A stretch of DNA of 64,000 bases from Bacillota bacterium (GTDB lineage Bacteria > Bacillota_I > Bacilli_A > Izemoplasmatales > Hujiaoplasmataceae): contig JAHIRM010000005.1 of the NCBI GenBank assembly GCA_018818595.1, positions 1 to 64,000 on the forward strand, given 5' to 3'. Shown in pieces: positions 21,189 through 32,186 of this stretch. Within the stretch, counting starts at the first letter, position 1, and each line of letters starts with the position of its first letter. Under the pieces are notes generated by a model that ran no database searches, was not told the origin of the DNA, and was given only the letters and a program-made list of their open reading frames with translations. The position numbers and the translations under genes are program-made.

Positions 21189-21473
21189 TTATTCTTCTCT
21201 TTTTTTGTTAGGATTGTGATTGGGATTTTTTAGAATAAAATAGGAACAATTTAGCGGACAAGATTCCATTAAATAATCTGGAATCATTTTATAATTGTTT
21301 GTTTTACCGTTTTTTGAAAAACCTTTTAACCTTAACATTCCTGCAGAATAATCGCCAACAATATAAGGATAAATATCAAAAACATCTGTATATCGTTTGT
21401 TAAAATCATCTAAAACAAACGCTTCGCGATAGTTTTTAATAATCTCAAATTCTCCATGAATTGAATCTACCAT
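21189..21473 (-). CDS. yutD: YutD family protein
   Basis: A protein of 94 residues from the ATG at 21473 (AGGAG nine bases upstream; the ATG at 21482 abuts that site). The text FEIIKNYREAF near the start and YIVGDYSAGMLRLKGF in the middle match the YutD (DUF1027) family, whose function is not established. A CPLNC pair with further Cys is near the C-terminus. It is first in the yutD-nfu-pgpA set. Confidence 0.85.
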   Translation of the reverse strand: MVDSIHGEFEIIKNYREAFVLDDFNKRYTDVFDIYPYIVGDYSAGMLRLKGFSKNGKTNNYKMIPDYLMESCPLNCSYFILKNPNHNPNKKREE

Positions 21474-21556
21474 ATTACTCATCTCCTAGCACATAATATT
21501 GTAACACAAAAAGATGAAATTCAAGCATTTTATGCATCGAATTCCCTTTAGAAATA

Positions 21557-21580
21557 AAGCGGGCCATGGTAGCCCTCTTT
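21557..21580 (-). terminator. Terminator after ispF
   Basis: On the minus strand, GGGCTA-CCA-TGGCCC is extended by an AAAG/CTTT outer stem and followed by a T-rich tail. It overlaps the ispF stop. Confidence 0.65.
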
Positions 21581-22070
21581 ATAGCATTATAAATAAATCG
21601 TTTTGTAGTAACACTATTGCTTCACAAATAATTGCTTGTTCTTTTCCGACAATTCCTAATCCTTCAAATGTTGTTGCTTTAATTGATACTTTCCCAATTT
21701 CAACATCAAGAATATCAGCAATATGCTGTCTCATTTCATCGACATAAGGCCTTAGTCTTGGTTTCTCTAAAGAAACCATGCAATCGAGATTTGATATTTC
21801 ATATCCCTTTTTTCTTACAAATTCATACACTTCTTTTAAAATTAACCCAGAGTCATAATCTTTATACTTTGGTTCTGTTTCTGGAAAAAACTTTCCTAAA
21901 TCTCCAAGCGCAACTGCCCCAAGAATTGATTCTGCAATTGCGTGTAGCAAACAATCTGCATCAGAATGTCCAACCGGGCCATTGTGATGGTCGATTTTGA
22001 TACCGCCTAAAATAAATGTCTTTCCTTCAATCAAAGGATGAATATCTTTTGAAAAACCAATTCTTAGCAT
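21579..22070 (-). CDS. ispF: 2-C-methyl-D-erythritol 2,4-cyclodiphosphate synthase
   Basis: IspF makes the cyclic diphosphate intermediate of the MEP isoprenoid pathway. Visible are the metal-binding DIH at the N-terminus, LGGIKIDH, and the HSDADCLLHAIAESILGA signature; GDLGKFFPE follows. The 163-residue length is normal. The start at 22070 overlaps the end of ispD by seven bases. Together with ispD it shows that this organism makes isoprenoids by the MEP route. Confidence 0.96.
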   Translation of the reverse strand: MLRIGFSKDIHPLIEGKTFILGGIKIDHHNGPVGHSDADCLLHAIAESILGAVALGDLGKFFPETEPKYKDYDSGLILKEVYEFVRKKGYEISNLDCMVSLEKPRLRPYVDEMRQHIADILDVEIGKVSIKATTFEGLGIVGKEQAIICEAIVLLQNDLFIML

Positions 22071-22720
22071 AATAGCGCCTCCAAAATTATTAAATCTATT
22101 AAAGTTGTGCCCTTTAAATTATCTTCTCTTCCAGGCACAATAAAAACATCTTTATGTAATTCGCTTCTATAGACGGATGTATCATCTGAGTATGTATGTT
22201 TAGATTGATTTGCAAGTTCATGAGCTTTTATAATTTCTTGAGTAATAAATACTTGCGGTGTTTGCAGAGTGTAAACAGAGTTTCTATCAACATCTCCAAC
22301 AATTCTAAGGTTGGTTGTTTGTTTTAATGTATCTTTTACCCGTATTCCAAGCGTCAAAGCATTCTTTTTCTTTAAAGCTTCTTTCAACTGGTCGATTTGT
22401 TCTATTTTTATGTTTGGTCGAGCTCCATCATGAATAAAAACATATTTTGTTTTAACTTTGCTTAATCCCAAATATACACTTTCTTGTCTGGTTTCTCCGC
22501 CAATTACTATTTTAACATTTAAATCTAAAAAAAGATTTTTAATTTTTTCATAATCAATTTTATTAGTGACAACAATTATTTGTTCACAATCAATATCTTT
22601 AAGAAAAACCTCGACGCTGTAGCAAATCATTGATTTACCTTTCAGCAAATAAAACATTTTATTATACTCAAGTCCGGTACGCATACCAGAGCCTGCTCCA
22701 ACAATCACTGCAGAATACAT
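22064..22720 (-). CDS. ispD: 2-C-methyl-D-erythritol 4-phosphate cytidylyltransferase
   Basis: IspD attaches CMP to methylerythritol 4-phosphate. The nucleotide-binding start GAGSGMRTG, GGETRQESVYLGL, the HDGARP motif near residue 97 and TPQVF are all present. 218 residues. It sits between the formyl-THF cyclo-ligase gene, whose end it overlaps by 16 bases, and ispF. Confidence 0.95.
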   Translation of the reverse strand: MYSAVIVGAGSGMRTGLEYNKMFYLLKGKSMICYSVEVFLKDIDCEQIIVVTNKIDYEKIKNLFLDLNVKIVIGGETRQESVYLGLSKVKTKYVFIHDGARPNIKIEQIDQLKEALKKKNALTLGIRVKDTLKQTTNLRIVGDVDRNSVYTLQTPQVFITQEIIKAHELANQSKHTYSDDTSVYRSELHKDVFIVPGREDNLKGTTLIDLIILEALLC

Positions 22721-23253
22721 AATACCTCCCGATCTGTTAGAATCATGCTTAATCTAACATCCTGATAATTATGTTCAATTTCACTCGCAAGTTGAATTTG
22801 AAACCCAATTCCCATTGTATTTCCTTTAAAAGCTTTTAAATACAAATCATAATATCCTTTTCCATATCCAATTCGATATCCACCCCTTGAGAACACAAGC
22901 CCTGGAATTAAAATTAGGTCGATATCAGTTGCATTTATAGGGTTCCCTATTGGTTCAAACAAATCAAAGGGGCCCTTTTTAAAGTTTTTAGAATTTGGTA
23001 TAAATTCCATTATTGAATGTAATTGATCCGTTACTCTAGGAAAGCAAAATCTCTTTGAACCATCCTCTAAAAGATCCAATAAATCTACTTCAGTTTGAAT
23101 GGGATAAAATAATGCGATAGTCTTTGCGTTGATATAAACATCAGTTGATTTTATTTTATGAATAATAATTTCTGACAATCGCTTTCTTTTTTCAAATGAA
23201 AGTTGGTTTCTTTTTGATTTATATTTTTTTCTTAATTCTTCTTTTGATTCCAA
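22705..23253 (-). CDS. 5-formyltetrahydrofolate cyclo-ligase
   Basis: A 182-residue enzyme converting 5-formyl-THF to 5,10-methenyl-THF with ATP. The N-terminal KKYKSKRNQLS and the RIGYGKGYYD nucleotide loop near residue 128 are typical. The start is a TTG at 23253, two bases after the stop of the GGDEF-like gene, with GGTGAG upstream. It supports the one-carbon pathway that glyA feeds. Confidence 0.93.
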   Translation of the reverse strand: MESKEELRKKYKSKRNQLSFEKRKRLSEIIIHKIKSTDVYINAKTIALFYPIQTEVDLLDLLEDGSKRFCFPRVTDQLHSIMEFIPNSKNFKKGPFDLFEPIGNPINATDIDLILIPGLVFSRGGYRIGYGKGYYDLYLKAFKGNTMGIGFQIQLASEIEHNYQDVRLSMILTDREVLCILQ

Positions 23254-23255
23254 AA

Positions 23256-24428
23256 TTACTCACCGAATATAGCATAATTTTTCTTTTGATTTCGAATGGC
23301 TTCGTTCAAAGCTTTATTAGATAATCCTATAAATTCATTCATTGAGTAATTGGACCAAGGTTCATGCTTAATAATACCTAAGTTCGGATAAACTATTTGT
23401 TGAATTCCACCAATGTTTAGAGCTAAATTCACTAAATCTCCTCCGCTTTGGAGCGCTCGGAATAAGATATCATATTTTCTTTGTTCTTTAATGATTAATG
23501 CAAATTGAATTCCTGTCACTCTAAAAATGCTATTGACATCTTTCGCGAAATGGAATCGCATTTTTTTTATATATTCCGCAATCATCAAATTTCCAACTTC
23601 TCTACCAAATCGTTGGTTAAGATCCGGAATATTTGTAAGTTGAATCATAACTAAATAAAAAGGTTCTGTTTCTTTGCTAATTTGATTTAAATACTGAAAC
23701 ATGTGTTGTTCGGTTGGCAAAGAATCAATTTCATGAATCGATGTCTCAGGAAAAAGTTTTATGTCGACGCCTTTTACTGCGGAAATAATTTGAATTTTTT
23801 TTTCGAATTCAAATACTTTTCCTTTTTCTTCTATCCAAACAAAAATACCGTTTCGTTTAATCCGATATTTCATATCATAAGATGGATTCTTTTTATTTGC
23901 CTTTTTAATAGCTGCTAGATATGAGACTTGATCATCTTCATAAATTTGGTTAACATATTCTTCCATCGAAAATTTGTTTTTGCTCGTATTTGCGATTTGT
24001 AAGAATTGATCAGTAACAAATACTCCGCTTAAATCATCGTCATAAAACAACAACGCTTCTCCTAATAATCCAATGGTTGAAATAAATCTTAATCGAAGCA
24101 ACTCGGAAGACGATTTTGTTTCTTCTAATTCTTTTTCAAGTTCAAAGAAATCATAATCTGTTAAGTTTTGAGTAATTTTAATTTTATTTTTAAAGGTAAT
24201 CCCCAAGAGAATAACAGCTGCATACAATAGGTAGGAAAAATATAATTCGGCCAATTCCATTGATATAAAAGAAATCCAACTAGGTGAAAAGGTCAAAATT
24301 GCAAATACAGCAAAAAATAGAAATATTAGAATTAATTTCCACAATCGAAATTTATGATAAATTATTGAACTGAGTGTCATCAGCAAAACAAGAAGTCCTA
24401 AAGAGCAATAAATTAAGTTGTCGTTCAT
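23256..24428 (-). CDS. Membrane protein with PAS-like and degenerate GGDEF domains
   Basis: A 390-residue protein. Three hydrophobic segments fill residues ~5-95, followed by a short coiled coil and a PAS-like segment (about 130-210). The C-terminal ~150 residues look like a diguanylate-cyclase fold, but the catalytic GGDEF position reads TGIQF (in FRVTGIQFALI). It is therefore probably catalytically dead and may bind a ligand or partner. It lies between the desaturase fusion and the cyclo-ligase on the same strand. The function is unknown. Confidence 0.75.
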   Translation of the reverse strand: MNDNLIYCSLGLLVLLMTLSSIIYHKFRLWKLILIFLFFAVFAILTFSPSWISFISMELAELYFSYLLYAAVILLGITFKNKIKITQNLTDYDFFELEKELEETKSSSELLRLRFISTIGLLGEALLFYDDDLSGVFVTDQFLQIANTSKNKFSMEEYVNQIYEDDQVSYLAAIKKANKKNPSYDMKYRIKRNGIFVWIEEKGKVFEFEKKIQIISAVKGVDIKLFPETSIHEIDSLPTEQHMFQYLNQISKETEPFYLVMIQLTNIPDLNQRFGREVGNLMIAEYIKKMRFHFAKDVNSIFRVTGIQFALIIKEQRKYDILFRALQSGGDLVNLALNIGGIQQIVYPNLGIIKHEPWSNYSMNEFIGLSNKALNEAIRNQKKNYAIFGE

Positions 24429-24452: not shown

Positions 24453-26801
24453 TTATTTTTTTATGTTCGTCTTTATATACATAATTGGATAATAATATGT
24501 TAAAAAAATGCCTAGAAAAACAAGATTATATAAAACTGATACATATCTTTCTCCGGTTACATAAGTTCCGCCTAAAATTCCTAGAAAGATTAGGGCCCAA
24601 ACCAAAGTTAACCCATTATTGATTACTTTAAATAGAACCGTGTTAGCATAATCTTTACGATAATCAAATTGATGGAAGTCATAGACGATTGGTTTACTTA
24701 TCATTCCAGAAATTAAAAAAACAAATCCAATAATCCCAAGAAAAGGATCGTCGCTTTTCAATTGATTAAATGCTGGCCAGAATATTGCCATAAACAATGT
24801 TGTTAAATATATAAAATTCATTAAATATTCAAACCACGAAATTTTGTGAAAAATGCGAAATTTTAATAAAGTAATTAAAATAGATAATCCAAAAGCAAAA
24901 GGAATTAACCAAATCATATTTAGATAATTACTTAGAAAAGCGACTATCGAAAAAACAAGTAAATGAGCAAATAAAAATTTTACACCTAAATACTTGATTT
25001 TGTTTTGTGCTTGATACGAATTATCATACTCTTCATAATCATCTAAGTTAAACGCAGGAATTGCTTGATACAATAATTCTGTGCTTCCAGTATATTTTAG
25101 ACCACCTTGTTTAAGCACTTCTTCAAATGTTGTTTTCTTTAATAACAAATTTGATAATTTATCATTTGTAGTGTAAATAGACAAATCTGGGTTGCTGTAA
25201 ACTCCATGATGAAGTGTAATGTTTTTGCCTTTTGTTCGCACAAAATAATTACTTTTACCTACGTGAAAATTAACATGAATTTCCGAATTTCCTAATAAAA
25301 TTTTTCCGTAATTATGACGAATCATCATCATAATTTCGTCGTTTGTCAAATAATAGAACGAATCATCATCTTCTCCATAATATAATCTTTCTTCTATTTT
25401 ATCTCCCATAACAATACCTGAATGAATAACGCCAAATATTCCAGCTTCAGGTCTTAACCATTTTCCGGTAACATATAGATTATCCACAATTTGAATATGC
25501 TCAGCTGCCTCTATAGCTATTTGCTCATTAATGGAAAGTCCTTTTCGAACCGACATTTCGCTTAACATTGATAGATATTGTCTTGGTTTTCCTTCACGAA
25601 TACCAACAATCGTTTTTTTCATTTTAGGAAAAACTTTGTAAAGACGCTTAAGTAACTCGTCTTGTGTAGTGGGGTTTTCGTTATCGTATGTATAATCCAA
25701 ACAAATTGTCCCAGACTTCGCTGAAGAGGAATCTTTGCCAAATAATTTGTAATTATAAAGACGAATAATTTTTCCTTTTGATTGGCTGTCATTTTTGAAA
25801 AAGTACGATTTTTCAATCATGCCAATGTTTTGTGGCTTTTGATTAAGAGCGATATAAAGTGTATTCACCATTTGAGTACTGTCTAGATTAGGATAGAACT
25901 TACTAATGGTATCAATTTCTTCCGTAAAGTCAGAAAAATAGGTTTGATAAAACTGTTTTGGATTTTGATTAATTACAAAATATTTTGCGGTAACTTCTTT
26001 GTTTTCTGAATCGATAAGATGTGTTACTTTTTTAGATTCGTCGTAGATATAGTGTTTAATTTTTCGCTTTTGAAAAATATTAGGATTAATAATTAATAGT
26101 TTAGAAATCAATAGTTTTCTGATTTCATCAATACTTTGATTTAAATAATAAAACCCGTGTTTCAGTCCTAAAAAATAATTCATAAAAAAATTATAACTAT
26201 TTATGGATTCAGGCTCTAATCCGTTTACTTGGTTATTTAATATAAACTCATTCACTAATTCTAAATCCGTAAAATATTTTTCTAATAAATCATTTAAGCT
26301 ATAGTCTCCCCATTCAATCATAAGAGACGTTAATGTATAATCCGTGTTAACAAGCATGCTTTCTTGTTGAGTAACAAAATTCAAATAGTGACGTTCTAAA
26401 TCTTTAAAAAATCGATGGATATTATCCCTTTGCTTTGGATAATATCTTACCAAATAGACTCGAAATTGTTCGAAAGAATGAAATCTCTTGCGAACGGAAT
26501 CGTCCAATTCAATTATCATTTCATATTCGGATTTTATTCCTTTTAAATCATTATTCAATCCAAGAACTTCTAAATATTTATAAAGCAACCCAGATTCTAA
26601 AGAAGTAATTATATTATCTCTTTGGTATTTAAAGTGATACTTATTATTTTCCGGATCAGTAATGTTCGTGATTTCAAAGCCGTCTTGTTCTTGTTTCTCA
26701 TCTAATATTATGGACACATTTCTCATTTTTCTCGCTAAAAAAAGTGCCGCAATTAAAGAAGTGATGTCTCCACCAATTACAAGCACATCGAATTGTTCCA
26801 A
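24453..26801 (-). CDS. Fusion: flavin-dependent desaturase-like / SCP2-like / membrane domain
   Basis: A 782-residue protein in three parts. Residues 1 to ~480 resemble phytoene desaturase / retinol saturase type FAD oxidoreductases, with a C-terminal block LRPEAGIFGVIHSG. The dinucleotide motif is degenerate, GGDITS instead of GxGxxG. Residues ~490-600 look like an SCP2 sterol-carrier domain (FHVGKSNYFVRTKGKNITLHH, then PDLSIYTTNDKLSNLL). The last ~160 residues contain five or so membrane segments. It starts with TTG at 26801 after GAGGTG. A lipid or isoprenoid substrate is inferred only from the domains. Confidence 0.7.
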   Translation of the reverse strand: MEQFDVLVIGGDITSLIAALFLARKMRNVSIILDEKQEQDGFEITNITDPENNKYHFKYQRDNIITSLESGLLYKYLEVLGLNNDLKGIKSEYEMIIELDDSVRKRFHSFEQFRVYLVRYYPKQRDNIHRFFKDLERHYLNFVTQQESMLVNTDYTLTSLMIEWGDYSLNDLLEKYFTDLELVNEFILNNQVNGLEPESINSYNFFMNYFLGLKHGFYYLNQSIDEIRKLLISKLLIINPNIFQKRKIKHYIYDESKKVTHLIDSENKEVTAKYFVINQNPKQFYQTYFSDFTEEIDTISKFYPNLDSTQMVNTLYIALNQKPQNIGMIEKSYFFKNDSQSKGKIIRLYNYKLFGKDSSSAKSGTICLDYTYDNENPTTQDELLKRLYKVFPKMKKTIVGIREGKPRQYLSMLSEMSVRKGLSINEQIAIEAAEHIQIVDNLYVTGKWLRPEAGIFGVIHSGIVMGDKIEERLYYGEDDDSFYYLTNDEIMMMIRHNYGKILLGNSEIHVNFHVGKSNYFVRTKGKNITLHHGVYSNPDLSIYTTNDKLSNLLLKKTTFEEVLKQGGLKYTGSTELLYQAIPAFNLDDYEEYDNSYQAQNKIKYLGVKFLFAHLLVFSIVAFLSNYLNMIWLIPFAFGLSILITLLKFRIFHKISWFEYLMNFIYLTTLFMAIFWPAFNQLKSDDPFLGIIGFVFLISGMISKPIVYDFHQFDYRKDYANTVLFKVINNGLTLVWALIFLGILGGTYVTGERYVSVLYNLVFLGIFLTYYYPIMYIKTNIKK

Positions 26802-26864
26802 AATATCACCTCAAATCAAGATCTTTCTCATCAAATTATATCATACTATCAAAAAAATTACTAT

Positions 26865-26896
26865 GTGAGAAAAAAAGAAAAGTGCTTGCGCACTTT
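26865..26896 (-). terminator. Terminator of cdaA
   Basis: AAAGTGC-TTGC-GCACTTT overlaps the cdaA stop codon and is followed on the minus strand by a long T-rich run. Confidence 0.75.
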
Positions 26897-27641
26897 ACAA
26901 TATTTTTAAATATTTTTCAAAATAGAGATTGAGTGTTTCCCTGCTAACATTATAATCAATTTGTCTATTTATAGTAACGCTTATGTATCCCGTTTCTTCA
27001 GAAACCACGATTGTTAACGCGTCGCTTTGTTCGCTTATTCCGATTGCTGCGCGATGTCTTGTTCCCAAATGCAACGGAAGATCGGTTCTTTCAGTAGAAG
27101 GATAATAAGCTTTAGCACATAAGATTGAATTTCCTCTTATTATAACCGCTCCATCATGAAGAGGTGTTGTTGGAATAAAAATGGATGCAAGCAATTCGCT
27201 TGTGACTGGAGCATTTACCATTAACGCTTTGCTAATAAAAGCAGATAAGTTAATTCCTCTTTCAATCGTAATTAAAGCGCCTATTTTGCGATTTGAAAGA
27301 AACTCTACTGTTTCTAACAATTTATCCGCTAAATCATTATTGATTTTAGATGATCTTTGGCTTTTAACTTTCGTTAACTTTAACTTTTTAAAAAGAAAAG
27401 TAAGCTCATTAAAATAAAGCATTGCTAGCAAATAAGGAATTGGTAATAAAATGACAATTTGAGTTATTAATGTAAAAGAATCTCCAAGATTCACAATAAA
27501 TAAAGTAAAGTCTAACCCTATAAGAAAAATAAAAAGTATTTTAAAAGGGCGTATGGTAATATGGCTTATTTTTACTCTTAATGTCAGTAAAAAAATGGCG
27601 TAAAGGTAAGTAATAGTTACCGCTAAACTAAAGTTTTCCAT
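26895..27641 (-). CDS. cdaA: Diadenylate cyclase (c-di-AMP synthase), CdaA type
   Basis: A 248-residue protein with three N-terminal membrane helices and a DisA_N domain. Both catalytic motifs are intact: DGAVII near residue 168 and RHRAA near residue 200. It makes c-di-AMP from two ATP, the signal that controls K+ and osmolyte transport in Gram-positives. In Bacillus the gene is followed by cdaR and glmM; here neither follows, and a terminator closes the transcript at once. Confidence 0.95.
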   Translation of the reverse strand: MENFSLAVTITYLYAIFLLTLRVKISHITIRPFKILFIFLIGLDFTLFIVNLGDSFTLITQIVILLPIPYLLAMLYFNELTFLFKKLKLTKVKSQRSSKINNDLADKLLETVEFLSNRKIGALITIERGINLSAFISKALMVNAPVTSELLASIFIPTTPLHDGAVIIRGNSILCAKAYYPSTERTDLPLHLGTRHRAAIGISEQSDALTIVVSEETGYISVTINRQIDYNVSRETLNLYFEKYLKIL

Positions 27642-27714: not shown

Positions 27715-28173
27715 TTATTTATTTTTTTTTATATCCGTCTTCTTAAAAACATAATCTAACGTAAAATACGCTACCGGAATTAATAATGCAGATCCAAAAA
27801 ATGGTGCAATATACGTTGCAAGTGGATAAAGAATATAATCAATATGAAACACATTAATGATAATTAAATCAAAGCCTACAGTTAAGCCACTGCCAAGAAG
27901 CCATCTAATTAAAAAAACTAGCATTACCACAGAAAATTGCATTGTAGATTTGTTTTTTGGCTTAAAAGTAAAAATTGCATTTGCAAAATAGGAAAAAATT
28001 GAAGCCGATACAAATGCAACCGAAAAAGACCAAAACGCTCCTGCAGATAGTTTATTATAAAATACTCCATAAATTAACAAATGAATTACGGTGTTTATAA
28101 CACCGATAATACCAAATGTTAAGAATTTTTTAGTTAAAAATTTCTCTTTAATAAATAAAATCAATTTCCTCAA
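27715..28173 (-). CDS. GtrA family membrane protein (probable lipid-linked sugar flippase)
   Basis: A 152-residue protein with four hydrophobic segments and the GtrA-family layout (FGIIGVINTVIHLLIY near the start, SYFANAIFTF in the loop). GtrA/GtcA proteins are thought to flip undecaprenyl-phosphate-linked sugars. It starts four bases after the GT2 gene, which itself overlaps the YfhO-like gene, so the three form one operon. Confidence 0.9.
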   Translation of the reverse strand: MRKLILFIKEKFLTKKFLTFGIIGVINTVIHLLIYGVFYNKLSAGAFWSFSVAFVSASIFSYFANAIFTFKPKNKSTMQFSVVMLVFLIRWLLGSGLTVGFDLIIINVFHIDYILYPLATYIAPFFGSALLIPVAYFTLDYVFKKTDIKKNK

Positions 28174-28177
28174 TTTC

Positions 28178-29092
28178 TTATTCCTCCGAAGTTTCTTCCA
28201 CCAAATAAATAGGTCTGTTTAATAATTGTCTTCTCATTTGATATAACAAATAGAAAACACCATAACTAACAAGCCCAAATACAAGCAATATAAACCCGCT
28301 TAATAATCCTAAAATAAACTCTGACGTGGAAAAAACAGAGAAAGCATAAAGCAAGGCAACTCCAATCAATACTATCACGCTAGCAAATAAAACAAAAACA
28401 GGCAAAATGATTAAAATAGTAGAAAATTGGTTCATACCATTAAAAGCATATTTAAATAATGATTTAAAACTCCAACTACTTGATCCGTTCACTCTCGGAA
28501 TAAAATCATACTCTAAACATTTTCTTGGATACCCAACCCAAGAAAATATTCCTTTGACAAAACGATAGTTATCGTTTAACTTTAAAAATGCTTCCACTAC
28601 CACTTTATCTAATAATTGAAAATCCTTGGCTCCGTTATCAAGTGGCATTTCTGTATGCGAATTATAGATTCGGTAAAACCAATTGGCAAAGAATGTTCTT
28701 AATTTAGGCTCTCCTTTGCGTGTTTTTCCTTTTGTATAAACTATTTTGTATCCTTCTTCATAAAAAGAAAGCATTTCTGGAATTAAAGCCGGAGGTTGTT
28801 GAAGATCACAATCAATAATGATGACTGCGTCACTTGATTTAGAATGTTCTAATCCAGCGTGCATTGCAGACTCTTTTCCAAAGTTTCTAGAAAAACTGAT
28901 GAATTTTATATTTTCATCTTTTGCTCTTAATTTTTTAATTTCAGAAAGGGTGTTATCTTTAGAACCATCATTAATATAAAGAATTTCAAATTGATATTTT
29001 GAATAATCTAAATATTTGTTAATTTCTTCATAGAAAGGTAAAACATTTTTCTCTTCATTATATGAGGGAACTATAATCGTTATTCGCTTCAT
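28178..29092 (-). CDS. GT2 glycosyltransferase (GtrB/CsbB-like)
   Basis: A 304-residue membrane-anchored GT2 enzyme. The N-terminal catalytic part has VPSYNEEKNV, DGSKDNT, and DCDLQQPP near residue 94, and two hydrophobic helices follow at about 225-285. This is the layout of GtrB, CsbB and dolichol-phosphate-mannose synthase relatives, which put a sugar on undecaprenyl phosphate. Starts inside the end of the YfhO-like gene after GGAG. Confidence 0.92.
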   Translation of the reverse strand: MKRITIIVPSYNEEKNVLPFYEEINKYLDYSKYQFEILYINDGSKDNTLSEIKKLRAKDENIKFISFSRNFGKESAMHAGLEHSKSSDAVIIIDCDLQQPPALIPEMLSFYEEGYKIVYTKGKTRKGEPKLRTFFANWFYRIYNSHTEMPLDNGAKDFQLLDKVVVEAFLKLNDNYRFVKGIFSWVGYPRKCLEYDFIPRVNGSSSWSFKSLFKYAFNGMNQFSTILIILPVFVLFASVIVLIGVALLYAFSVFSTSEFILGLLSGFILLVFGLVSYGVFYLLYQMRRQLLNRPIYLVEETSEE

Positions 29093-32000
29093 CTTTATTC
29101 ATCTCCAAAATCGTTTTAGATTTCTTTTTGTTTCTTTCAATTAAGCAAGTAGGAATAAATATTGCTCCATAGATTAAAATTCCTGCAAGAGAACCTAATG
29201 CACCAAGTTTTAGCCCTTTTGGTACAAACTTTAATTGAATATCTATACTGTTTACTCCTTCAGGAATAATAATCCCTAAGAATCCTCCGCTTGCGCTTAG
29301 TGTTTCGTACTTCGTTTCGGAAGTGAAAACCCATTCTTCAGAATAAGCAACTGGGATAACGATAAGTTGATCATAAGTTGATACGCTGATTCGGTCATAA
29401 CTTAGATTAATTTTACTATGAGCTATCGTTAATGATTCGTTTTCACTCAATGACGATGCTATCATATCTCTATAATCACTTAAATCATCAAAAGAATAAT
29501 CTAGAGATAAATTAAATAAATCTGGTTGTGAGTACATATCGCCTGTCTTAAAAACATACAATACATTTGGTGCAGATTCAAAATAATAATATCCTGGATA
29601 ACTTTCTATTTCGTTTCCAAAATCATCTACCGCAAACACTCGATCAAACGCTAGAAAAGTTTTATGTAAATTATTATTTCGATTTCTAATTTGATAATTC
29701 AATAATCCACTATCTGATATTAATGCATCTGAAAAATCATATACTAAATAAGCGGCTCCATCTATGGCTCGTTCAGAACGATAGATTAGCGTTTTCGAAG
29801 AATTAAAATCTTCCGTAGCTTCAAAATAGATGTAAGCGGGTTCTTCCCAAAATTCACATTTAACTTGATGAGCTTGGTCTGGTTGTATCTCACAAGCTTT
29901 TCTATCTCCATCAGCAAATTCCATAAATACTTCACCATAAGAATTAATATTTAAACCACTTACTTTAATATAGATTGCTCCTTGGTCAAAATTAACTCCC
30001 ATTTCTTCGTTGTCATATTGGTAAAATATTCTTTCGATATCGCTCGCAATTCCTTCTGTAACGATTGCTTCAGCCGAGTCTATTGTGCTGTATGCCGTTA
30101 TAGCTCGTTGTGCAACCTTTCCATCCAATTCATAATTGTTTAAATTTAAAAGCTCAGTATCGTAAGTTTCTGCATCAATTAGAGCGCTTACTAATAATAT
30201 CTTTTGAGACTGCAAATCATTGTAATATTTTTCAGTATACTCACTGTTTACAGCATACGATTCATAAACTTGAAATGGTTTCGAATTAAGAATTTCATAT
30301 AATTGATATTCCGTATTTGCATATTTTAATTGATAGAACTCGCTATCAAAGTAGTATGGAGTGTTCGAGTTAACTAGAATATATTTATATCCTAAGAATT
30401 GATTTAAATAAATTGCTTGAATTTCTAATTTCTCTTTTGTTTGATATTCCCAAGTGTTAAACAAAAGATAACCTATAAGATTTGTTTCTTTGTCAGACCA
30501 AGAATGAAATATTTCAGTGTTTGTTGGAAAAGATGTCATACGATTAAAATTAAACTTTTCAACATCAAACCTTTCAAGATCCACATAAACTCGATAAAAT
30601 TCGTCTTGATCTAAAACTTCATTTAAATATTCATCAATAGAGTTCATGGTTTGAAAAGAATCAATTTTATTGGGAATGGAAAAAGGTCCAGAATAGATAT
30701 ACACTATTCCTATTGCAAACTCCATCCAAAACAACCATTTAATATACTTATGTTTTTTCATCCATCCAAAAATTAGAATTAAAATCATTACAATTCCGGC
30801 TACTCCCATTAAAATGGTATCCGCCGTTAATACGTCTCTTGAAATATAAGTAACGTCTAAGCTAAGTTTTTTGATGTAATAGATAATTAATAAAGCGTCG
30901 GCTATAAACATGCAGGCAAGAGAAATCGTAAAATATTTCATTTTTACTTTTTCAAATCCAAATTCATCAAATACATGCGCTAAAATCATAATCATAACTA
31001 TTGGGAACATATTTATCCATCGAGTGTAAGGAAAATCGGGAGTTCCTGAGAATATTCGAGAAAAAATAGGGAAAATCATAAAGACTAATCCAACGACAAG
31101 CGTGGTTTTATAAACTTTGCTAATTCTTCCTCTCATAAAAAAGATATAGGACATATAAGCAAACCCAATAATAGAAATATACAATGAAACGTGTTCTATT
31201 TTATAATCATCTGTAAATCCATAAAATCCAATTGGTTTTTGCTCAGTAAAAATCTTGGCTAACATACGTATATAAATCTCTGGCTGAAATAATTCAATTT
31301 CAATTGGGCCAAAATTAAACAAAACTGGATCAAAAGTTCCTTCCGGTCTATAAGTGTCTTGAAGAATGTATAGAACAGAAGGATATAAAATCACCAAAGA
31401 CATCGCTACTCCCAGCAACAATAATCCTAAAAACAAGATTCCTTCTTTGATAAAATTAAGCAGCCTAAAATTAGGTCTTTTAAAATATTCAACCAAGAAC
31501 ATAACACTAATAAAAGCCAAAACAGTGTAGCCGAGGTAAAAATCATAAAAGATTAGTGCCATAGTAAAGAGCGGGACAATCCATCTTTTTTTGTGGAAAA
31601 AGAAGTGAATGACGACCAAACTTAATGGTAAATAGAAAACCATTGATAAAAAGACAGGGAACGCCATAAAACTTACTGTTCCACCGCTAATAAAATAAAT
31701 CATACTCATCCAAAAAATGGTTCTATTTTTCATTCCTTGTAAAGAAAAATAATAGGCGAAAATTAGAACTCCTGCTAATATTTTTATCAATTCAGTTGTT
31801 GAATAGGCAATTTCAGTAGGCATCACATAGCTAAAAATAAAGGTAATGAATGTGAAAATATCTAACGGAACATAATATACATCCGAGAAAATAGATGCTC
31901 CTAAATAATTATTTAGATTAAACCATGAAATCGTCCCATCTTTTACTTGAGCAATAAAGTCACACATAATACTATAATATTGGATAACATCATCAGAAAA

Positions 32001-32186
32001 ATTGTTATAGAAACTATTGTTAATTAAAATAATTAAGATGTCAATGACAAACAAAACAGTAAAAACAAGAAAAGCAATAAGTAAAAAAGTTTTTTTCTTA
32101 CTCGAAAACGTTTCTTCAATATAAGCGTGAAACTTATTAGAAAAATTTTTCATTCTCTCTTTGCGTCTATTTTTTTTGTCTTCCAT
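29058..32186 (-). CDS. YfhO family membrane protein (probable GT-C sugar transferase)
   Basis: A very large integral membrane protein (1042 residues) with a dozen or so helices in the first ~520 residues, an extracellular C-terminal portion rich in aromatic and acidic residues, and a final helix near residue 1010. An early loop has NFSDDVIQYY, reminiscent of the acidic catalytic loop of GT-C enzymes. In Bacillus, CsbB and YfhO together with a GtcA-type flippase glycosylate lipoteichoic acid. The same three families are adjacent and overlapping here. The acceptor polymer in this organism is unknown. Confidence 0.88.
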   Translation of the reverse strand: MEDKKNRRKERMKNFSNKFHAYIEETFSSKKKTFLLIAFLVFTVLFVIDILIILINNSFYNNFSDDVIQYYSIMCDFIAQVKDGTISWFNLNNYLGASIFSDVYYVPLDIFTFITFIFSYVMPTEIAYSTTELIKILAGVLIFAYYFSLQGMKNRTIFWMSMIYFISGGTVSFMAFPVFLSMVFYLPLSLVVIHFFFHKKRWIVPLFTMALIFYDFYLGYTVLAFISVMFLVEYFKRPNFRLLNFIKEGILFLGLLLLGVAMSLVILYPSVLYILQDTYRPEGTFDPVLFNFGPIEIELFQPEIYIRMLAKIFTEQKPIGFYGFTDDYKIEHVSLYISIIGFAYMSYIFFMRGRISKVYKTTLVVGLVFMIFPIFSRIFSGTPDFPYTRWINMFPIVMIMILAHVFDEFGFEKVKMKYFTISLACMFIADALLIIYYIKKLSLDVTYISRDVLTADTILMGVAGIVMILILIFGWMKKHKYIKWLFWMEFAIGIVYIYSGPFSIPNKIDSFQTMNSIDEYLNEVLDQDEFYRVYVDLERFDVEKFNFNRMTSFPTNTEIFHSWSDKETNLIGYLLFNTWEYQTKEKLEIQAIYLNQFLGYKYILVNSNTPYYFDSEFYQLKYANTEYQLYEILNSKPFQVYESYAVNSEYTEKYYNDLQSQKILLVSALIDAETYDTELLNLNNYELDGKVAQRAITAYSTIDSAEAIVTEGIASDIERIFYQYDNEEMGVNFDQGAIYIKVSGLNINSYGEVFMEFADGDRKACEIQPDQAHQVKCEFWEEPAYIYFEATEDFNSSKTLIYRSERAIDGAAYLVYDFSDALISDSGLLNYQIRNRNNNLHKTFLAFDRVFAVDDFGNEIESYPGYYYFESAPNVLYVFKTGDMYSQPDLFNLSLDYSFDDLSDYRDMIASSLSENESLTIAHSKINLSYDRISVSTYDQLIVIPVAYSEEWVFTSETKYETLSASGGFLGIIIPEGVNSIDIQLKFVPKGLKLGALGSLAGILIYGAIFIPTCLIERNKKKSKTILEMNKDEANNDYSSLI

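Follow-up and report, generated by a model that had tools for sequence, protein, structure and literature searches.

A desaturase-type flavoprotein fold joined to an SCP2-like pocket and membrane helices in wall-less Bacilli, a possible binder of a hydrophobic membrane ligand

The window, a 64,000-nucleotide stretch of contig JAHIRM010000005.1, belongs to a 1.87-Mb draft genome of an Izemoplasmatales-like, wall-less member of the Bacilli. The draft is 95% complete, so genes not found in it may be absent from the assembly only. The features discussed here are listed in Table 1. An earlier note, made from the letters alone, had pointed to a 782-residue polypeptide at 24453-26801, and the frame was indeed found there, on the minus strand. 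It occurs as a single copy in 31 of the 34 genomes of the window's family, nearly always at full length and at 39 to 66% identity, and it is present in 61 of the 90 genomes of the order. Since the homologues align free of stop codons across all these genomes, the comparison indicates a real gene and not a chance frame. Profile searches were extended to the class (395 genomes) and the phylum (392 genomes), and they detected no full-length copy beyond the order, only shorter matches. The nearest outside relative that we looked at, the CrtISO/CrtD-like enzyme L092, has 485 residues and intact motifs; it matches the NCBIfam model carot_isom at 4.9e-49 and does not carry the other two domains. Judged by these searches, the fusion is specific to this order, in most of which it is a fixed single-copy protein whose domains point to the handling of membrane lipids.

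Table 1. Features of the locus, in window positions
Feature	Coordinates	Strand	Basis or remark
cdaA, diadenylate cyclase	26895..27641	-	constant upstream neighbor; separate predicted transcription unit
Intrinsic terminator at the cdaA stop codon	26879..26896	-	perfect 7-bp stem plus T run
Extended -10 promoter element TGATATAAT of the fusion gene	26835..26843	-	
Three-part fusion protein, 782 aa, TTG start	24453..26801	-	
Residues 1-476, CrtI/CrtD/phytoene-desaturase-type fold	25374..26801	-	pLDDT, Foldseek, VIA-align
Residues 10-15, GGDITS, altered dinucleotide motif, Asp for the second Gly	26757..26774	-	family alignment
Residues 101-215, helical (substrate/membrane-side) domain with YLVRxYPKQR and WG motifs	26157..26501	-	
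Residues 487-588, SCP2-superfamily domain	25038..25343	-	profiles, separate fold, structure matches
Residues 605-780, about six transmembrane helices	24462..24989	-	AlphaFold2 and hydropathy peaks
PAS plus degenerate GGDEF signaling protein (TGIQF for GGDEF)	23256..24428	-	second gene of the unit, 24 bp downstream of the fusion gene
5-Formyltetrahydrofolate (5-FTHF) cyclo-ligase	22705..23253	-	predicted unit of the fusion gene
ispD	22064..22720	-	frame seen; name from the earlier note; gene order conserved; predicted unit of the fusion gene
ispF	21579..22070	-	frame seen; name from the earlier note; gene order conserved; predicted unit of the fusion gene
Terminator-like hairpin closing the predicted unit	21561..21575	-	terminator scan

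The full-length protein was modeled with AlphaFold2 on 12 sequences. The mean pLDDT was 75.7, with residues 1-476 well predicted, residues from about 477 to 600 poorly predicted, and helices at 605-780. Three parts are joined in this one protein, as had been proposed: a CrtI/CrtD/phytoene-desaturase-type fold and an SCP2-superfamily domain, both backed by fold matches, and membrane helices, backed by the model and by hydropathy. Majority identity within the window's family was highest in the SCP2 domain (0.72), followed by the helical and C-terminal parts (0.66) and the FAD beta-alpha-beta unit (0.62), so that conservation differs little between the domains. In the papers searched, we found no report of such a desaturase-like/SCP2/membrane fusion.

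The body of the protein, residues 1-476, was predicted with a pLDDT of about 85 to 90 over most of its length. Foldseek matched it to the gamma-carotenoid desaturase 4rep with an E value of 1.9e-13, CrtI and phytoene desaturase being among the structures matched, and VIA-align yielded Z scores of 24.0 to 24.2 to 3ka7, 5mog, and 4rep; the alignment to 4rep (Z 24.0) covered 432 residues at an rmsd of 3.9. These data confirmed, for the fold, the CrtI/retinol-saturase-type part that had been recognized in the sequence. In profile searches, PF01593 had no match at an E value of 0.01 anywhere in the genome, and the fusion protein scored 11.9 bits with TIGR02734 (cutoff, 238.1) and missed every curated CrtI-type cutoff. 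The helical domain at residues 101-215 is among the best-conserved segments and contains invariant columns.

For the middle part, the best profile match was to Alkyl_sulf_C (PF14864; 1.1e-5, 26.1 bits versus a cutoff of 27), which was also matched by 8 of 10 family members, and SCP2 itself (PF02036) scored 0.047 and 14.5 bits against a cutoff of 21.3. Residues 478-600 were then modeled separately, which gave a pLDDT of 83.9. The best 43 Foldseek matches in the PDB were all SCP2 proteins or C-terminal domains of alkylsulfatases (E value, 6e-7), and Z scores to structures of the SCP2 superfamily ranged from 11 to 13 (12.7 to 3bdq and 13.1 to 2yhe). The earlier note had let its SCP2-like assignment depend on whether residues 490-600 resemble SCP2 in profile or structure comparison; SCP2-superfamily structures came first among the matches and the profile scores fell below the Pfam cutoffs, and the assignment holds as one of fold. 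The same note had counted about five membrane helices. Their C-terminal position was right, but the number is six by model and hydropathy, the AlphaFold2 helices spanning residues 605-623, 629-651, 656-674, 685-700, 722-749, and 755-780.

The flavin site was compared with those of four CrtI-type reference proteins. The replacement of GxGxxG by GGDITS had been pointed out before, and it proved to be family-wide, the second Gly being Asp (25 rows) or Asn (3 rows) in 28 of 28 family rows. In 26 of these 28 rows, no acid occupies the aligned strand-2 (ribose) position, and 24 of the 28 have one at the next residue; the PG of the C-terminal motif has become PE in all 28. Likewise, the Gly-Gly motif after strand 2 (LGGK / AGGYAT), present in 4 of 4 references, was absent from all family rows aligned, that of the window included. 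The remaining Rossmann fold is intact. We dropped a missing C-terminal "GD" as evidence against FAD, as GS stands at this position in the order's true CrtI proteins. In the sister group (family f2), GGGLGS and the strand-2 Glu are kept in 6 of 6 members, and six divergent f2 members show a mixed state of the flavin-site residues. Because the sister group has kept both the second Gly and the acid, the alignments identify the loss of the canonical FAD site as a lineage property of the window's family; the ancestor probably bound FAD, and the GGGLGS group, with its acid, might still be enzymatic. Since the Asp/Asn at the second Gly is conserved and does not drift, it may reflect an unusual cofactor geometry rather than loss. 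A flavin site lost in one family and partly kept in its sister family thus offers a natural comparison of how a redox enzyme could become a binder.

At the 3' end of cdaA, a terminator is followed by a promoter element of the fusion gene. Both are conserved: a terminator hairpin was found in 29 of 36 cdaA-fusion gaps of the order (shuffle mean, 0.01), and TGnTATAAT was found in 29 of 36 as well (shuffle mean, 0.19). In the terminator scan of the minus strand, the next sites after 26879-26896 were at 21728-21716, within ispF and lacking a T run, and at 21575-21561. With a terminator and a promoter 3' of cdaA and no terminator-like site until ispF, the fusion gene most likely heads a predicted unit of its own, which continues with the genes for the PAS/pseudo-GGDEF protein and 5-FTHF cyclo-ligase, ispD, and ispF. 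The closeness of ispD and ispF on the same strand, noticed earlier, is therefore borne out, as they lie about 1.7 to 2.4 kb downstream in the same predicted transcription unit. Further along, 3' of ispF, most of the compared loci of the order encode a small protein that is conserved and about 97 aa long (21192-21482). On the other side, genes for GtrA-like, family 2 glycosyltransferase, and YfhO proteins occupy 27715-32186, upstream of cdaA, in the window's family, and a ribonucleotide reductase of about 843 aa takes their place in the f2 loci examined.

The constant position of cdaA upstream raised the possibility that the fusion takes over the role of CdaR as regulator of the diadenylate cyclase CdaA. 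No YbbR/CdaR was found in any of the 90 genomes of the order, 78 of which have cdaA, and in the seven genomes of family f3 neither cdaA nor the fusion was found. However, the conserved terminator and the new promoter separate cdaA from the fusion gene, several genera hold cdaA with neither fusion nor CdaR, the fusion protein itself has no YbbR domain, and gene order is conserved throughout the region anyway. We consider such a role very improbable. Replacement of CdaR was set aside on account of the terminator and promoter after cdaA and the genera with cdaA but no fusion, and a c-di-AMP module formed by a cdaA-fusion-PAS/GGDEF operon is disfavored by the same observations.

Gene order from cdaA through the fusion gene to the PAS/GGDEF gene is identical wherever all three are readable, and the latter two are separated by -4 to 30 bp in the complete loci examined. 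Whether or not the fusion is there, nearly every locus compared in the order has the PAS/degenerate-GGDEF gene next to cdaA or close by. In four genera (g12, g21, g25, and g26) the fusion is cleanly absent, leaving cdaA and the PAS/GGDEF gene 21 to 31 bp apart, and no terminator or promoter was seen in the gap sequences inspected. Among outgroups, families f5 and f12 have a related PAS/GGDEF gene, 5-FTHF cyclo-ligase, and IspF near cdaA, with IspD in one f5 locus, and they have no fusion. Because the surrounding genes occur there without it, the fusion gene was probably inserted between cdaA and the PAS/GGDEF gene.

This arrangement could also suit a lipid-state sensor, in which the fusion would bind a lipid and the neighboring PAS/pseudo-GGDEF membrane protein would relay the signal. 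The two genes are directly adjacent in one predicted unit, and every PAS/GGDEF row aligned has a degenerate GGDEF motif, which makes it unlikely that the PAS protein acts as a cyclase. On the other hand, this protein persists where the fusion has been lost and has relatives near cdaA in fusion-less outgroups, which argues that it is independent of the fusion. We rate such a sensor as quite unlikely.

We then considered which lipid the protein might encounter. Phytoene/squalene synthase (PF00494) was not found in any of the 34 family genomes, so carotenoids made by the cell are an unlikely substrate in this family, and an identity as carotenoid desaturase was rejected there. The genome of the window has one UppS-type cis-prenyltransferase (C19:13508-14170), and no trans-polyprenyl synthase (PF00348) was found in this 95% complete draft. 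Should the ligand be an isoprenoid of the cell's own making, the leading candidate is therefore a cis-polyprenol or the corresponding phosphate. SCP2 domains bind many lipids, and for this reason a glycerolipid or a fatty acid is possible as well. Across the order, phytoene synthase was found in 0 of 52 genomes of the groups with a well-conserved fusion (34 of the window's family, in three of which no fusion was found, and 18 of g16, g18, g20, g27, and g28) versus 16 of 18 genomes of the fusion-less genera g12, g21, g25, and g26. In the carotenoid-making clade, the fusion is divergent or lost, and its well-conserved form and phytoene/squalene synthase are almost mutually exclusive. The anti-correlation is suggestive only, because the tree holds just two losses of the fusion, both inside this one clade, and genus g17 has both the fusion and phytoene synthase.

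These findings bear on whether the protein is an active membrane flavoenzyme, in which the SCP2-like pocket would supply the CrtI/RetSat-like domain with a hydrophobic substrate, such as a polyprenyl lipid, for saturation, desaturation, or isomerization with FAD held in an atypical site. The fold of the body belongs to a known redox family, sister-group members retain GGGLGS and the strand-2 Glu, L092 has its motifs intact, and a predicted unit is shared with ispD and ispF. Yet the FAD hallmarks are missing in the window's family, a carotenoid precursor synthase was found in 0 of its 34 genomes, and the window's genome gives no PF01593 match. Such an enzyme is possible, and we lean against it.

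The reading that we prefer, with a probability of roughly 0.45, is that the fusion binds a hydrophobic membrane ligand and passes it on, or reports it, without canonical FAD chemistry. In this reading, a CrtI/retinol-saturase-type flavoprotein fold has been joined with an SCP2-like lipid pocket and with six helices that anchor it in the membrane. In the window's family, where the canonical FAD-binding residues have been lost from the fold, the protein would most likely dispense with flavin turnover. The CrtI-like cavity and the SCP2-like pocket may bind the lipid at the membrane and then pass it on or report it, and the ligand would be hydrophobic, probably polyprenyl. Computation supplies the three domains, how well they are conserved, the missing FAD hallmarks, and the predicted unit with the PAS/pseudo-GGDEF gene, ispD, and ispF; ligand binding, the absence of FAD, the cytosolic side, and a polyprenyl lipid as the ligand are inferred. 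The earlier note had suggested capture of a hydrophobic isoprenoid or lipid followed by its oxidation or reduction. Capture agrees with the presence of an SCP2-like pocket and with the conservation of the helical domain, but redox chemistry is doubtful in this branch, given the missing FAD hallmarks and the lack of a PF01593 match.

Compared with known systems, the fusion shares its fold with CrtI/CrtD/CrtISO/retinol-saturase-type flavoenzymes (TIGR02734, TIGR02730, and PF01593; 4rep, 5mog, and 3ka7) at a Z score of about 24 and keeps remnants of their N- and C-terminal FAD motifs. Unlike them, it has the second Gly replaced, the strand-2 acid lost or shifted, no Gly-Gly, and PE for PG, it carries the SCP2 and membrane domains in addition, and it resides in a genome in which no carotenoid precursor synthase was found. 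Residues 487-588 share their fold with the C-terminal domain of SdsA1-type alkylsulfatases (PF14864) and with SCP2-like 2 (PF02036). In alkylsulfatases, the SCP2-type domain stands beside a metallo-beta-lactamase domain, whereas in the fusion it stands beside a flavoprotein fold and membrane helices. A more distant parallel is offered by Rab GDI and REP, which are not known to carry out flavin chemistry. These eukaryotic proteins bind prenylated GTPases. Neither was among the structure matches listed, and such a listing is no test of absence. In SCOP, both REP and GDI are classed under the FAD/NAD(P)-binding fold (PMC1994686). By analogy, the fusion could be their bacterial counterpart in principle, a membrane-anchored, flavin-less desaturase-type carrier or sensor of polyprenyl lipids paired with the PAS/pseudo-GGDEF protein; we regard this as unlikely, and the likeness is one of idea, that of a flavoprotein fold turned carrier of prenyl-bearing cargo.
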